Part shown: positions 1 through 8,420 of the stretch, piece after piece
Numbering within the stretch: position 1 is the stretch's first letter
Layout: each line of letters starts with the position of its first letter
IMG/VR virus record: IMGVR_UViG_3300035388_000080
Location: 1 to 32,070 of that record
Origin: a virus
Strand: one strand, 5' to 3'
Length of the DNA: 32,070 nucleotides
Position numbers and translations under genes: made by a program
Notes under the pieces: generated by a model
The model's input: the letters and a program-made list of their open reading frames with translations, nothing else
Told to the model about the DNA's origin: nothing
The model's database searches: none

Positions 1-891
1 ATGTCTGAATTGTATCTATCCGAAGTTGAATCTCAAATCAATCAGTATTTTTCCCATCAGAGAACGCGCGCACTGTCCAAAGAAACCCAGAAGACCTATA
101 GGATTATCATAAACGTCCATCTGTTGCCATTCTGCAAAGAACAAAACATCACCCGGCTGGATCAAGGCTTTGATGATCACATGGAGGATTATATAGATTA
201 TCTCCGATCTAAAAAGCACACAGGCCAGACTATTCAGGGTTATATTACTGTGACCAAGCTGCTTTTTAGGTTCCATGGAGCGCCATTGTCCTTTAGCTAC
301 CGGATACCTCGGGCTGACAAGCAACAATTCGATTTAAAACATGAAAAAAGATGGTTTTCAGACAGGGAGGTGGCAATGTGTCGAACCTATCAATTCCACT
401 CCAATCATACCAGGAATCATATTCTCATCCGCCTTTTGACAGAAACCGGGGCCCGGGAAAATGAAATCGCACACATAACCGTAGGAGATGTGAATATTTG
501 GGGAAAGGAAGTTCTCATAACCCATTCTAAGACAATCCCCCGGACCGTTTTTATCTCGCAAGAGACTGCAATCCTCCTGGAGAACTATTTTCAAAGCAAG
601 TATCCAGACCAGCGAAGGGATATAGATGTTAAAATCTTTCCCGGGAAAAATCAAATTTATAAAATTATCTGCAAAATGCTACTGGATCTTGATTTAAAAA
701 TAAAAAAAGACGGCAGAGGGCCGCACACCTTCAGGCACTTTGTTGCAACGTTCCTTTATTTTGAAAAAAATATGCCATTGACGGATGTGGCTTTCATCAT
801 GGGGGATAAAACACCGACTATTGAAAACAACTATTTACATCCAACAACGGCAATGCTTGGTAGCCGTATGAGAAAGGCGTCTGGCTGGTAA
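1..891 (+). CDS. Tyrosine recombinase / integrase (XerC/D-like)
   Basis: A site-specific DNA recombinase of the phage integrase family, 296 aa. The N-terminal part (about 1-110) looks like a SAM-like core-binding domain. The catalytic domain shows Arg152 (TGAREN), a candidate Lys177, His242 and Arg245 in HTFRH, and the nucleophile Tyr278 in NNYLHP. The usual second His/Trp appears to be Asp269 (MGDK), a known kind of variation. It is the only recognisable plus-strand enzyme in the window and converges on the phage late operon, with a hairpin terminator between them. The first base of the window is its ATG, so its promoter and ribosome site cannot be judged. Whether it is a host gene, part of a neighbouring element or a phage-encoded recombinase sitting where Mu carries Gin is unresolved. 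The family call is secure; the role is not. Confidence 0.9.
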   Translation: MSELYLSEVESQINQYFSHQRTRALSKETQKTYRIIINVHLLPFCKEQNITRLDQGFDDHMEDYIDYLRSKKHTGQTIQGYITVTKLLFRFHGAPLSFSYRIPRADKQQFDLKHEKRWFSDREVAMCRTYQFHSNHTRNHILIRLLTETGARENEIAHITVGDVNIWGKEVLITHSKTIPRTVFISQETAILLENYFQSKYPDQRRDIDVKIFPGKNQIYKIICKMLLDLDLKIKKDGRGPHTFRHFVATFLYFEKNMPLTDVAFIMGDKTPTIENNYLHPTTAMLGSRMRKASGW

Positions 892-2672: not shown

Positions 2673-4232
2673 TTATTTCTCCTTCTGATAAAAAATAAAG
2701 GTTCGTTTTGCTGAGTTAAAAATAAAATTTCGTTTTGCTGCGGTGAATTCAATAACCGCCTTAACCGCCGGGGGAAGGACAGATGAATCAATACTCCAGG
2801 AGGTATCCTGCTCAAGTTCGGCAAAGATTTTATAAGCCAAATCCTGATCAGTGACCTTGAGAATATCCCAGGCCATGGCTTGAGCCTTTGCATTGATAAT
2901 CTTCCAGGCAGTCTCCTGATCCGTCGCTGTCTGGATCCGCCAACCGGTAACCTGGTCTTTTGCTTTAAGGATTTTCCATGCAAGAGCCTGGCTGATCTCA
3001 CCGCTGGAAAGGATTTGCCAAGCAATGCTTTGCTCCAGGTCATTGAAAATTTTCCATGCTGATTGCTGATCTGTTGAGGTCAAGAGCTTCCATGCGGCCT
3101 GTTGTTCTTTTTCTGATAAAATCTTCCAGGAAATATTCTGGGATAAAATACCTTGGAGAAGGATTTTCCAGGAAACATCCTGGGACAACCGGTTGATGAT
3201 TGCCCAAGAAGAATCCTGTTCAAGTCGATTAATGATTTTATAGGATGTGGCTTTTTGTTCAGAATTTAAAATTTTCCAAGCAGCGGTCATGGTAGTATCG
3301 GCCATGACCTTCCATGAGGCATATCCGGAACTGGATTTCAGAATTTTCCAGGCAGCGCCCCGATTCAATTCTTTGAAAATTTTCCAAGAGGTAGATTGCT
3401 CTTTGAGATCAAACAATTTCCACGAAGTATCCACGGATTTTTCAGCCAGAACTTTCCAGGCGACAGGGAGGATAATAGGCAATAAACCACTTTCTATAGG
3501 CGGGAATATTGTTTTTTGTTGGACTGGCGCAAGCAAGCCCCACAAATTATCTGAAAATGATTTTACTTGGCTTGCTGATAACTCTTCGTTCCATGCCGAA
3601 ATTTGATAAATAATGTCATCTTCGGCACAATACGTTGCGCTATTTATACCGATATGATTAAAATCAAATGAAGAAACCCCTGTGCTCTTTGATTCTTTAT
3701 AAATTCCGTCTTGATACGCTTTTATTGTGGATTCTGAGGACCCATCACAAACCACAATTATTGTCGTTTCTCTTGAAAAATCCGTTATCGTTGCAAAATC
3801 TAACGCCCCGGACAATCTTAGCCTAAATTTTGACCCAGGATATCGTCCGATGTATCCATAGTCTGTACTATTGTCATTTCCTGCTAAAATCGCTTTTGTG
3901 GTGCTTGTTGACCTTGTTTTGAACGTAATAGCAATTGCCCAGGGGGTATTATCAGCCGCACTAAAGGCAACAGGCAAAAACCCCCATGCTTGCAATGCTG
4001 AGTTTGAGACATGCAGACCATTTTCTTTCCACTCCAGTGCCTCAAAAAATTCCCCGGATTCGCCGAGATTTTCCAGGTCATGGAACAGTCCAGCATTTTC
4101 CCACAACGGGCAGAACATTGAGGGGATTGGCACACCTATGTTTTTTAGGTTTTGATGGAACGCAGACTTAGCCCCAGAAAAAGGCCCCCACTGTTTGGGT
4201 TTTTGCTTATATTTTTGCCGTAGAAATGGCAT
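2673..4232 (-). CDS. LamG-like protein with 12-residue W-K-I-L repeat array
   Basis: A 519-aa protein, probably a virion surface or adhesion component. Residues about 60-235 resemble a LamG/concanavalin-A-like jelly roll (W-A-I-A-I-T-F-K, Y-G-Y-I-G-R, I-Y-Q-I-S-A-W-N-E-E-L-S and V-K-S-F-S-D-N-L-W-G are typical strands). Residues about 257-488 hold some 19 tandem repeats of 12 residues, consensus x-A/S-W-K-I-L-x-x-x-x-Q-x, two of them 14 long. The C-terminus carries two short A-K-R-x-F-I-F repeats. The ribosome site is modest (GAGG). It lies downstream of the tail fibre among uncharacterised genes. The repeat regularity suggests a beta-solenoid or stacked-hairpin stalk displaying the LamG domain for host or sugar binding. 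The domain pattern is visible; the function is inferred. Confidence 0.8.
   Translation of the reverse strand: MPFLRQKYKQKPKQWGPFSGAKSAFHQNLKNIGVPIPSMFCPLWENAGLFHDLENLGESGEFFEALEWKENGLHVSNSALQAWGFLPVAFSAADNTPWAIAITFKTRSTSTTKAILAGNDNSTDYGYIGRYPGSKFRLRLSGALDFATITDFSRETTIIVVCDGSSESTIKAYQDGIYKESKSTGVSSFDFNHIGINSATYCAEDDIIYQISAWNEELSASQVKSFSDNLWGLLAPVQQKTIFPPIESGLLPIILPVAWKVLAEKSVDTSWKLFDLKEQSTSWKIFKELNRGAAWKILKSSSGYASWKVMADTTMTAAWKILNSEQKATSYKIINRLEQDSSWAIINRLSQDVSWKILLQGILSQNISWKILSEKEQQAAWKLLTSTDQQSAWKIFNDLEQSIAWQILSSGEISQALAWKILKAKDQVTGWRIQTATDQETAWKIINAKAQAMAWDILKVTDQDLAYKIFAELEQDTSWSIDSSVLPPAVKAVIEFTAAKRNFIFNSAKRTFIFYQKEK
2769..3464 (-). repeat. Array of about nineteen 36-bp (12-aa) coding repeats
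   Basis: On the minus strand the unit encodes variants of A-W-K-I-L followed by a polar, Gln-containing linker. Seventeen units are 12 codons and two are 14. The plus strand correspondingly shows recurring attttccaggc-like words. The units have diverged in DNA while keeping the Trp-Lys-Ile core, so the array is kept by protein selection rather than being a fresh tandem expansion. Confidence 0.85.
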
Positions 4233-6000: not shown

Positions 6001-7845
6001 TTAATTTTTGATTGCTGCAATCACAATTTGATATCTGGGCGTGTAAGTATCCTGAGTGACGGTATGACTTGTCGGCCCGCCAGAACCCGTATTGCCAGTT
6101 CCTCCATACCCGGTGTTCTCTGACCCACCTATTGCGGTATAAAAGGATTGATTTAACCTATTTCCGCTTGCTACATGTGACGTATATGCCAATATCGCCG
6201 TCCATCCGATTGATGCGGTTGTGATATCTATGGCTGAACCCCCAGAATTATATGATTTGGCATCTGCCGTGCCACCATAGTTATACCATAAATGATTATG
6301 GCTTGACCCCGTATGTCTATGATTCGGCCCGGTATGAGTATGGGCTGCATGGCTCCCAACTCCAATATTAGTGACCCATGATGATGGGCTATCTGACCCA
6401 CCTGACCCATAGGTATTGCCAATAATCAGGCTTGCATTCGATGCCCAATTGCTTTTTTTTGTCCATCCCACCGGGGCGCTGGCCTGGTTGAATAGCATTG
6501 ACGTACCCGCCGGAAAAGCTTCATGGTTGGATAGGCTATGGTCATAAGCCGCTTTTCCTCGGTCCCCCCGATACGCAGTGACGGACGTTTCCCCAAGATT
6601 TGCTTTTCCGTTCCAGGTGGTCTTTTCGGCATCGGAAACGAACCTGTCGGATGATGTCTCCGCAATGATAGAAGGCGGATGGGTGCTTGGGTGACTGTAG
6701 TAATTGGCGTTAGATGGGGCATGGGCGGCGTTTTTATGATCTTCCCACGCTTTGGTTTGCGTGTGGGTAACGTGAACCTTTGCCGTGCCTGTTACCGCCG
6801 GATTTGCAACCGTGGCCTTATGGGCGGTCAAGCTATCATTTACCGTGTCCACCGCCCTTGAACTCGCCACTGTGGTGGAACTGGCAAGGGTGGTGGAATC
6901 GGATATAGCATTGGGTATAGCATTCAAGCCAACCTGGGTTTTCGTTACCGAATGGGGATTGTCTCCACGGCCGACGTGATACAATAAGGCATTATATGCA
7001 TACCTGACAGCCTCTGACGTTGCCAAAGTGGCGGAGCTTGCCAAATTAACCGCGTCGGATATGGCATTGGGTATGGCACTCAAGCCAACTTGGATTTTCG
7101 TTACCGTATGGGGATTGTCTGTTCGGTTGATATGGGCTATCACGGCATCATAAGCAGTTTTAACTGCTCTGGACGTTGCGAGGGTAACTGAGCTTGCCAA
7201 GGAAACCAAGTCAGATATTGCGTTGGGCAAATTACCCAGGCCTACCTGGGCCTTGGTGGTGCCGTGGGGGTTGGCGGGGGAATCTTTATGGTCTTGCCAG
7301 ACCTTAGCTTGTGCATTGGAGAGGTGCTTCTCCTTGACCGTGTTGGTATCTGCCGGATTTAGCTGTTTAAGTTCATGCTCCTGCATGTCTGCAAGGCTGA
7401 GGGTGGCCACGTTCGGATCCAAGGTGATGGTGATATCTTCGGTGTTGCCTGTCAGGGCAATAATATCAAAGATCTGTTGAAAAGCTTGGTCTTCAGGGGG
7501 TATCCAATCCGCTGGATCAGCCGACATATAAGAATACAGGATTTCACCAAGATCAGGATCATTGGCCATCAGGCCCACTTCTTTGGCATAAAAACCTGTG
7601 ATAAGACCTGCATTTGATAGAATGGTACGAATCTTTGTGCGGCCAGTACCTAAGAATTCAAAAGAATTGATATCAAAAGCCTTTACTTCATTGACCAGGC
7701 TGTTCAAGGTTTTAAGATCTGTTCCCCCGGCAACCACACCATCGCCGATGACAAGCTGCGTTAATTCAAGGGTCACACCAGCATCGGTTTTTGCTTTGAG
7801 GTCATTCCCTTTGTTCGTTATCACACCGTTTGTAAAACTTGCCAT
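6001..7845 (-). CDS. Tail fibre protein with collar-type C-terminal domain
   Basis: A 614-aa receptor-binding fibre. Residues about 1-150 match the P2 gpH/DUF3751-like N-terminal domain that joins the fibre to the baseplate (MASFTNGVITNKGNDLKAK, LVIGDG, GFYAKEVGLMA). Residues 192 to about 345 contain three 52-residue repeats beginning Asn-Pro-His. A collar-like domain begins near residue 443 (FPAGTSMLFN followed by APVGWTK), followed by a Gly/Ser/His-rich region (PNHRHTGSSHNH) and the usual end TPRYQIVIAAIKN. The ribosome site is GAGAGGG. It lies directly after the tail I-like gene, as in P2 and Mu. Host specificity probably resides in the C-terminal third. Confidence 0.93.
   Translation of the reverse strand: MASFTNGVITNKGNDLKAKTDAGVTLELTQLVIGDGVVAGGTDLKTLNSLVNEVKAFDINSFEFLGTGRTKIRTILSNAGLITGFYAKEVGLMANDPDLGEILYSYMSADPADWIPPEDQAFQQIFDIIALTGNTEDITITLDPNVATLSLADMQEHELKQLNPADTNTVKEKHLSNAQAKVWQDHKDSPANPHGTTKAQVGLGNLPNAISDLVSLASSVTLATSRAVKTAYDAVIAHINRTDNPHTVTKIQVGLSAIPNAISDAVNLASSATLATSEAVRYAYNALLYHVGRGDNPHSVTKTQVGLNAIPNAISDSTTLASSTTVASSRAVDTVNDSLTAHKATVANPAVTGTAKVHVTHTQTKAWEDHKNAAHAPSNANYYSHPSTHPPSIIAETSSDRFVSDAEKTTWNGKANLGETSVTAYRGDRGKAAYDHSLSNHEAFPAGTSMLFNQASAPVGWTKKSNWASNASLIIGNTYGSGGSDSPSSWVTNIGVGSHAAHTHTGPNHRHTGSSHNHLWYNYGGTADAKSYNSGGSAIDITTASIGWTAILAYTSHVASGNRLNQSFYTAIGGSENTGYGGTGNTGSGGPTSHTVTQDTYTPRYQIVIAAIKN
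6805..7272 (-). repeat. Three 156-bp (52-aa) direct repeats in the tail fibre
   Basis: Units start at residues 192, 244 and 296, each with an Asn-Pro-His, a Thr-Lys-x-Gln-Val-Gly-Leu and a Pro-Asn-Ala-Ile-Ser-Asp motif. The second and third copies also match closely in DNA: the segments near 6907-6963 and 7063-7119 differ at only about five of 57 bases. This implies recent duplication or gene conversion. Confidence 0.85.
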
Positions 7846-7853
7846 AATCCCTC

Positions 7854-8420
7854 TCAGTTACACTCCACCTGCTGGTGGGTCGCTGTTAATATTACCATGC
7901 CGGTATAGGCGGTCTGAATCGCCTCAAATTCAATAACAATGGTTTCCAGTTTTGCGCTGGCTGCCTTATATTCGTTGGCAATTTCCCTTATAAGAGCATA
8001 ATCCTCGGTTTCCATCCAAAAGTTCGGGCGGATGTACAGTCTGAATTCAGCCCACCGAGCCGAATCCTCAGATCTTAAATTCAAAATAATGGCTTCAAAC
8101 CCGTAATAGAGGAAAATTTCCACCATGCCTTTGCTCTTACCAGATTTGTCATGCCATAACTTGGCCAGGGCCACCCGGTTTCTATACTGATCATAGGTCT
8201 CTCTGTAATGACGCCCGGGGATCCCCCTGGACCGTGCATGGTTTGGTAAATGATCATCAATGCATTTTTCAGGGACAAACTGGTCACGGAGCCACAAAAT
8301 AGCGGTCCGGGCCTGGTCCAGGGCAAAGGAGGCACCTTTCACCATTGCGGACAAAGATCCTTCCCTCCAGATAGGTGCCCAGCGCAGTGTCTTTCTAAAA
8401 TATTCCCAGAAAAGGCCCAT
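7854..8420 (-). CDS. Tail protein I-like (Mu gp48-like) baseplate protein
   Basis: A 188-aa protein placed by gene order (after baseplate J, before the tail fibre) and by its Trp-rich helical N-terminus (FWEYFRKTLRWAPIWREGS) as the gpI/gp48-type wedge component that connects the baseplate to the fibres. The ATG lies one base after the J stop and has no strong ribosome site of its own, so coupling to J is likely. The C-terminal part (about 120-188) is strand-rich. The family assignment is mainly contextual. Confidence 0.75.
   Translation of the reverse strand: MGLFWEYFRKTLRWAPIWREGSLSAMVKGASFALDQARTAILWLRDQFVPEKCIDDHLPNHARSRGIPGRHYRETYDQYRNRVALAKLWHDKSGKSKGMVEIFLYYGFEAIILNLRSEDSARWAEFRLYIRPNFWMETEDYALIREIANEYKAASAKLETIVIEFEAIQTAYTGMVILTATHQQVECN

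Follow-up and report, generated by a model that had tools for sequence, protein, structure and literature searches.

A 2023 structure study of the Ralstonia podophage GP4 reportedly described its fibre I as a row of five gp80 dimers, which an elongated rope protein connects, with a fibre-tail adaptor as the anchor; the Pfam family PF23148 (Gp77) is named for the fibre-tail adaptor of this phage. Among donor-strand fibres are the chaperone-usher pili (FimA, FimG, PapA), in which the strand is carried by each subunit. For the Alishewanella phage LSH1, the proteins gp34, gp35 and gp36, which always occur together and are called virion proteins, have been described as an adhesin whose C-terminal part could not be predicted well, a fibril protein and an Ig protein, gp35 being matched by HHpred to the GP4 chain 8JOU_g (PMC13243795, 2026). 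The authors of that work wondered about a repetitive motif in the C-terminal part of gp34, where no repeat array was recognised; they could not model the complex, and they cited the adhesin of the phage Slicko01 as a relative (PMC13243795).

The DNA analysed here, hereafter the window, is a virus record that spans 32,070 bases. Its early region is Mu-like (AAA ATPase, DUF3164, GemA), and it has genes for terminase, capsid, DUF2586, tape measure and Baseplate_J, and the phage is a Mu-like myophage. It encodes a protein with a long and regular repeat array (the array protein), adjacent to a gene of the family phrog_13135. The resemblance to the fibre I of GP4 lies in a 103-aa gene of the gp77 family and, in the model proposed here, in a fibre built like a chain that carries an adhesin and is anchored at the collar, whereas GP4 is a podophage and the phage of the window a Mu-like myophage. 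Compared by its published description, LSH1 gp34–36 resembles the window in that genes for an adhesin, a fibril protein and an Ig protein lie together; on the other hand, a repeat array is recognised in the window protein, and none was recognised in the LSH1 adhesin. As discussed below, the array is real and belongs to a tail fibre module, of which it is a conserved and widespread part. That the repeat has no characterised role, as stated in the first-pass annotation, is right for the repeat itself, while a module of like make-up has one recent mention (PMC13243795); the type of module was already known and the role of strand-carrying spine that we propose for the repeat is new as far as checked.

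The repeat array and its setting in the window

The array gene is located downstream of the Tail_P2_I and collar fibre genes, and is followed by the phrog_13135 gene and then by the gp77-type gene (Table 1); its position downstream of the tail fibre had been correctly noted from the sequence. Inside the collar fibre gene, DNA repeats of 18 bp and 156 bp were observed (window 6860–7200). A tyrosine-recombinase-like integrase is encoded on the opposite strand (window 1–891, +), at one edge of the Mu-like phage, and is perhaps host flank. When nine further records of phages with arrays were searched for the DUF2586 sheath, no match was obtained, and the controls were silent too.

Table 1. Coordinates of the array protein, of its parts and of the neighbouring tail genes in the window.
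Feature	Position	Strand	Description
GP4 gp77-family adaptor, 103 aa	1843..2154	(-)	PF23148 Gp77 E 1.3e-7, 32.5 bits, cut-off 27
phrog_13135 protein, 167 aa	2167..2670	(-)	PHROG E 7.1e-13 (residues 14-160); Ig-like beta sandwich by prediction; candidate fibre bead
Array protein ORF, 519 aa	2673-4232	(-)
C-terminal tail of array protein	2676..2765	(-)	residues 490-519; two copies A-K-R-x-F-I-F; presumed tail anchor
Array	2766-3461	(-)	residues 258-489; 19 units A/S-W-K-I-L-x(5)-D-T/S; units 9 and 13 have 14 residues
N-terminal part of array protein	3462..4232	(-)	residues 1-257; putative adhesin, presumed to be exchangeable; resembles LamG only on visual inspection
Collar-type tail fibre	6001..7845	(-)	separate receptor-binding protein upstream of the module; PF12571 E 5e-6; phrog_7037 tail fiber E 1e-39
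Tail_P2_I baseplate protein	7854..8420	(-)	PF09684 E 3e-4; same type as the array fusion in L178

The spacings of the units over residues 258–489 (12 eight times, 14, 12 three times, 14, and 12 five times) confirmed the 19 units, 17 of 12 and two of 14 residues, that had been described from the sequence alone. The array had been placed at 2769–3464, where the location was right but one codon off. Similarly, the Trp reported as invariant is found in 17 of the 19 units, but Tyr replaces it in units 7 and 18. In its fuller form the consensus of the unit reads A/S-W-K-I-L/F-x(4)-Q-D-T/S; when the 17 units of 12 residues are considered, Lys occupies position 3 in 13 of them and Ile position 4 in 13, the others having Val or Leu, and Gln is at position 10 in 11. 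The [WYF]-x-[IVLM] pairs at a distance of 12 residues were 16 in the array region; when the region was shuffled 1000 times, the average was 0.16 and no shuffle gave more than 3.

At the DNA level, no tandem repeat was detected over the array by Tandem Repeats Finder in the window, and the sharing of codons by identical residues in different units (0.405) was close to that expected from the codon usage of the gene (0.411). Since synonymous codons are as mixed as by chance and no DNA repeat is found, the array is old and held at the protein level. In the C-terminal tail, instead, a 27-bp DNA tandem repeat (window 2685–2740, 2.1 copies, 86% match) encodes the doubled A-K-R-x-F-I-F motif, and the duplication behind it is more recent than the array units.

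Some matches to Pfam families were also obtained for the array and rejected. MgtE_N (PF03448) scored 27.2 bits, exceeding the cut-off of 25.9, over the array only and with no single stretch passing, and was considered a repeat artefact, as were the matches to Peroxin-22 and YejG. The same MgtE_N family scored 43.9 bits with the array of another phage locus (L128:4454-5494), and annotation pipelines may mislabel array proteins as magnesium transporters by this match over the Pfam cut-off.

As for residues 1–257, the LamG-like domain that had been proposed to precede the array was confirmed neither by sequence nor by AlphaFold, while array proteins of related phages do carry LamG_3. In fact, Laminin_G_3 (PF13385) gave no match to this part even at E 10 in the search of the window, and none at E 1 with the domain alone; no Pfam family matched residues 1–257, and a profile comparison with LamG-bearing array proteins gave E 0.08. 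A weak similarity was observed with the array protein of L170 only (E 2e-7). Most other array proteins have N-terminal domains with no relation to the one in the window, and some of these domains are LamG_3 or DUF2341; the N-terminal domain varies freely across the copies of the module.

Pairing of the array with phrog_13135 across phages

No relatives of the whole array protein were identified by a close-relative scan and tblastn in viral contigs and cultured phages. The repeat was followed as a pattern: a loose W-x-I DNA pattern retrieved mostly low-complexity frames, whereas a stricter one, requiring W-x-I units 12 apart, retrieved true arrays. By this DNA pattern alone, true arrays were found in L049, L058, L122/L135, L125, L128, L131, L132 and in a Deltaproteobacteria genome (L155), and each of them adjoins a phrog_13135 relative. 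About 30 phage proteins were found to carry this repeat. The closest to the window is L125, which has an array protein of similar size, the same R-x-F-I-F tail and the same two downstream genes; the R-x-F-I-F doublet is kept in most of the 12-residue arrays, and the gene order array protein, phrog_13135, gp77-type protein is common to the window, L125, L176, L181 and L184. Beside the arrays of these five, PF23148 Gp77 scores over its cut-off. Moreover, a profile built with the gp77-type protein of the window and 7 relatives matched the GP4 chain PDB 8jou_D with E 7.5e-5. On the contrary, phrog_13135 showed no sequence match to the GP4 chains (HMMER, with profiles of 10 and 37 sequences), nor did array profiles match PDB chains.

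To evaluate the association independently of the repeat, 57 viral loci were fetched with the phrog_13135 profile only, without using the repeat, and one strict array rule was applied. An array gene was directly beside phrog_13135 in 33 of the 57 loci, compared to 7 of the 2073 other ORFs of the same loci (Fisher p 2e-50), and several of these 7 array-positive ORFs are one gene away from phrog_13135. Among L170–L191 and L203, all the loci with at least 44% full-length identity have an array gene, either upstream or downstream; the apparent exceptions either have it on the other side of phrog_13135 (L174, L178 and L191) or carry a variant motif (L182 and L183). With many of the array partners in other loci, the phrog_13135 protein of the window shares about 50% identity. 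One mobile module, present in very different phages, is thus made up of the array gene, its phrog_13135 neighbour and, in many cases, a gene for a gp77-type adaptor.

The period of the repeat is also related to the partner. In a phrog_13135 tree of 37 rows for which both parts were available, one branch (support 99/94) separates the 12-residue from the 14-residue periods, a value as low as this being obtained in 0 of 500 shuffles. This match between the period and the clade of the partner is what a direct contact would give, and the common descent of neighbouring genes may in part explain it. The almost constant pairing, together with the fact that the clade of the partner predicts the unit length, points to an array folded by its partner.

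The motif varies among the closer relatives, reading S-H-I-L in L182 and mixing F, Y and W in L183, and more so in distant variants with a spacing of 14–15 residues, such as Y-N-I in L204, W-H-I-R in L217 and W-x-V-R, behind a LamG domain, in L223. In the N4-like Alteromonas phage PT15-A5, Y-x-V motifs 14 apart are found in the gene before phrog_13135. In the 1844-aa adhesin of the Alishewanella phage Slicko01 (L169:11569-17100), motifs of the S-F-D-I type (F/Y-x-I/V) 12 apart were observed in the C-terminal half, with 7 pairs against at most 4 in shuffles. Proteins of 106–129 aa with about six or seven 14-residue W-x-I units adjoin phrog_13135 in L195:4374-4694, L209:5219-5608 and relatives; these short proteins are minimal arrays without adhesin. 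At the other extreme, a chain of 1201 aa (L178:5484-9089) contains about 50 W-x-I units followed by a Tail_P2_I domain (PF09684 E 5.5e-10), and the array protein of L174 (L174:5577-7862) has DUF2341 at its N-terminus and, at its C-terminus, an Ig-like domain that resembles, by eye, a separate upstream adaptor-like gene (L174:4570-4923).

The number of units ranges from about 6 to about 50, yet eight arrays (window, L155, L170, L171, L181, L185, L186 and L188) have exactly 19 units, and other arrays of their same clade have from 18 to 46. The total length of the array is 230–234 residues in seven of these eight; it should be considered that L188 is a near copy of L181. The likeness of the units in the 19-unit arrays is 0.32–0.46 within an array and 0.33 between arrays, thus on the whole higher within, and no unit-by-unit orthology was detectable among them. 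A constrained fibre length in this group, with the number of units acting as a ruler, is suggested.

The phrog_13135 gene of KVP40-like and N4-like phages is flanked by structural genes. In some 50 Vibrio phages, as in L164:5905-6453 (KVP40 gene KVP40.0353), a relative was observed between the gp15 and terminase genes, and no annotated array gene is present in the 12 kb surrounding phrog_13135 of the KVP40-like phages. No phrog_13135 was found in plasmids, and among 60 genomes around the Deltaproteobacteria host of L155 it was found in that host only.

Structure models and the possible role of the array

The AlphaFold model of the array protein of the window had a pLDDT of 34, with about 35 and spurious helices in the array (monomer). 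The structure prediction that had been proposed as a check on the repeat gave, therefore, no stacked fold for the array at a pLDDT of about 35, in a monomer model. In L171, phrog_13135 could be modelled in an in-frame fusion with its array, the stop being read as Ser: phrog_13135 was predicted to form an Ig-like sandwich, most of which had pLDDT >90, and the array units had pLDDT 32–55, with no docking onto it. The fold of the L171 phrog_13135 matched the N-terminal domain of GH123 enzymes (Z 7.9) and pilins, e.g. FimA and FimG (Z 6.6–7.3); values below 8, both for GH123 and for the pilins (Z 6–7), are no proof of kinship of these modelled folds. GP4 8JOU was not among the listed fold matches of the L171 fusion (Foldseek, VIA), which is uninformative either way. 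Matches of the model m90185756fecc in BFVD included proteins of the Bacillus phages SP-15, G and PBS1 and of the Brevibacillus phage SecTim467, some of them long and one named LamG-like; these large Bacillus phage proteins could be single-chain versions of the module, as far as fold matches can tell.

There is good support for a stalk that presents a binding domain as part of a tail appendage: unrelated N-terminal domains are found on the same array, the C-terminal tail is kept, a gp77-type adaptor is encoded next door and fusions occur in L178 and L174. This part of the earlier idea stands, but a beta structure that stacks on itself is not supported, given the pLDDT of about 35 in the monomer model and the pairing with phrog_13135. 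The free end is probably the adhesin and the other is probably fixed to the tail, since it is the C-terminal end that is conserved (R-x-F-I-F) or fused to tail proteins (L178, L174).

We consider it rather probable that the array is the strand-like spine, or rope, of a beaded receptor-binding tail fibre, with its units docking on phrog_13135. The predicted Ig-like sandwich of phrog_13135 aligns to the pilins, and the units look like the donor strands of chaperone-usher pili; the difference is that the donor strands of the window would be in tandem on a separate chain and those of pilins are on each subunit. We infer strand docking, stoichiometry and length control as follows. Each unit (T/S-A-W-K-I-L) would be a short beta strand docking on the open edge of the phrog_13135 sandwich, a docking that the AlphaFold model of the L171 fusion did not show; strand donation would occur as in pili, with all the donor strands strung on one separate chain, and the x-x-D-Q stretches would link neighbouring units. 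Many copies of phrog_13135, perhaps as dimers, would bead the chain into a semi-rigid fibre, in which the N-terminal domain would be the receptor-binding tip, the C-terminal R-x-F-I-F tail would hold the gp77-type adaptor and thereby the tail, and the length of the fibre may be set by how many units there are.

Other explanations have to be weighed against this one. The very regular period and the alternating W-x-I pattern, typical of strands, would also suit an array that folds by itself into a stacked beta structure, either a solenoid or a trimeric beta spiral, forming a rigid stalk, with phrog_13135 only capping it, belonging to the collar or making a second appendage; the shafts of phages and adenoviruses are commonly built as trimeric beta spirals. 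We regard such self-stacking as rather unlikely, since no stacked fold was predicted (pLDDT about 35 in the window and <55 in the relative, in monomer models) and the pairing and co-variation with phrog_13135 would be left unexplained. The tight pairing could instead reflect an assembly chaperone, phrog_13135 being needed only during the folding of the fibre and absent from the virion; a small gene directly beside a fibre gene is, in fact, typical of fibre chaperones. This is unlikely, considering that gp35, the middle protein of the similar LSH1 module, was reported in the virion and had an HHpred match to the GP4 fibril chain (PMC13243795), and that phrog_13135 has structural genes on both sides in the KVP40-like and N4-like phages.

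The low AlphaFold confidence would be expected of a flexible, unstructured tether, or entropic spring, carrying the adhesin with no bead protein. However, W/Y, I/V and the spacing are kept across very divergent phages while the codons are randomised, hydrophobic units are ill-suited to a free tether and the period tracks the clade of the partner, making a tether very doubtful. Finally, an array protein that is intracellular, made in the lysogen or at lysis and not part of the virion, is highly improbable in view of the tail-gene neighbourhood and of the fusion of the array to a tail protein in L178.

If the array is indeed a strand-like spine beaded by phrog_13135, this would explain a widespread and unrecognised repeat in phage receptor-binding proteins, perhaps including the C-terminal part of LSH1 gp34. 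For annotation, A-W-K-I-L every 12 or 14 residues beside phrog_13135 would be a signature to replace false names such as MgtE. More tentatively, a class of tail fibres is possible in which one chain with up to about 50 tandem W-x-I donor strands is beaded, strand by strand, by a separate Ig-like protein; the unit count would be the length ruler, the period would match the bead, and tip, spine, bead and anchor would be exchangeable among tailed phage types. The proposed spine would give these phages a modular fibre, the reach of which would be set by the number of units.
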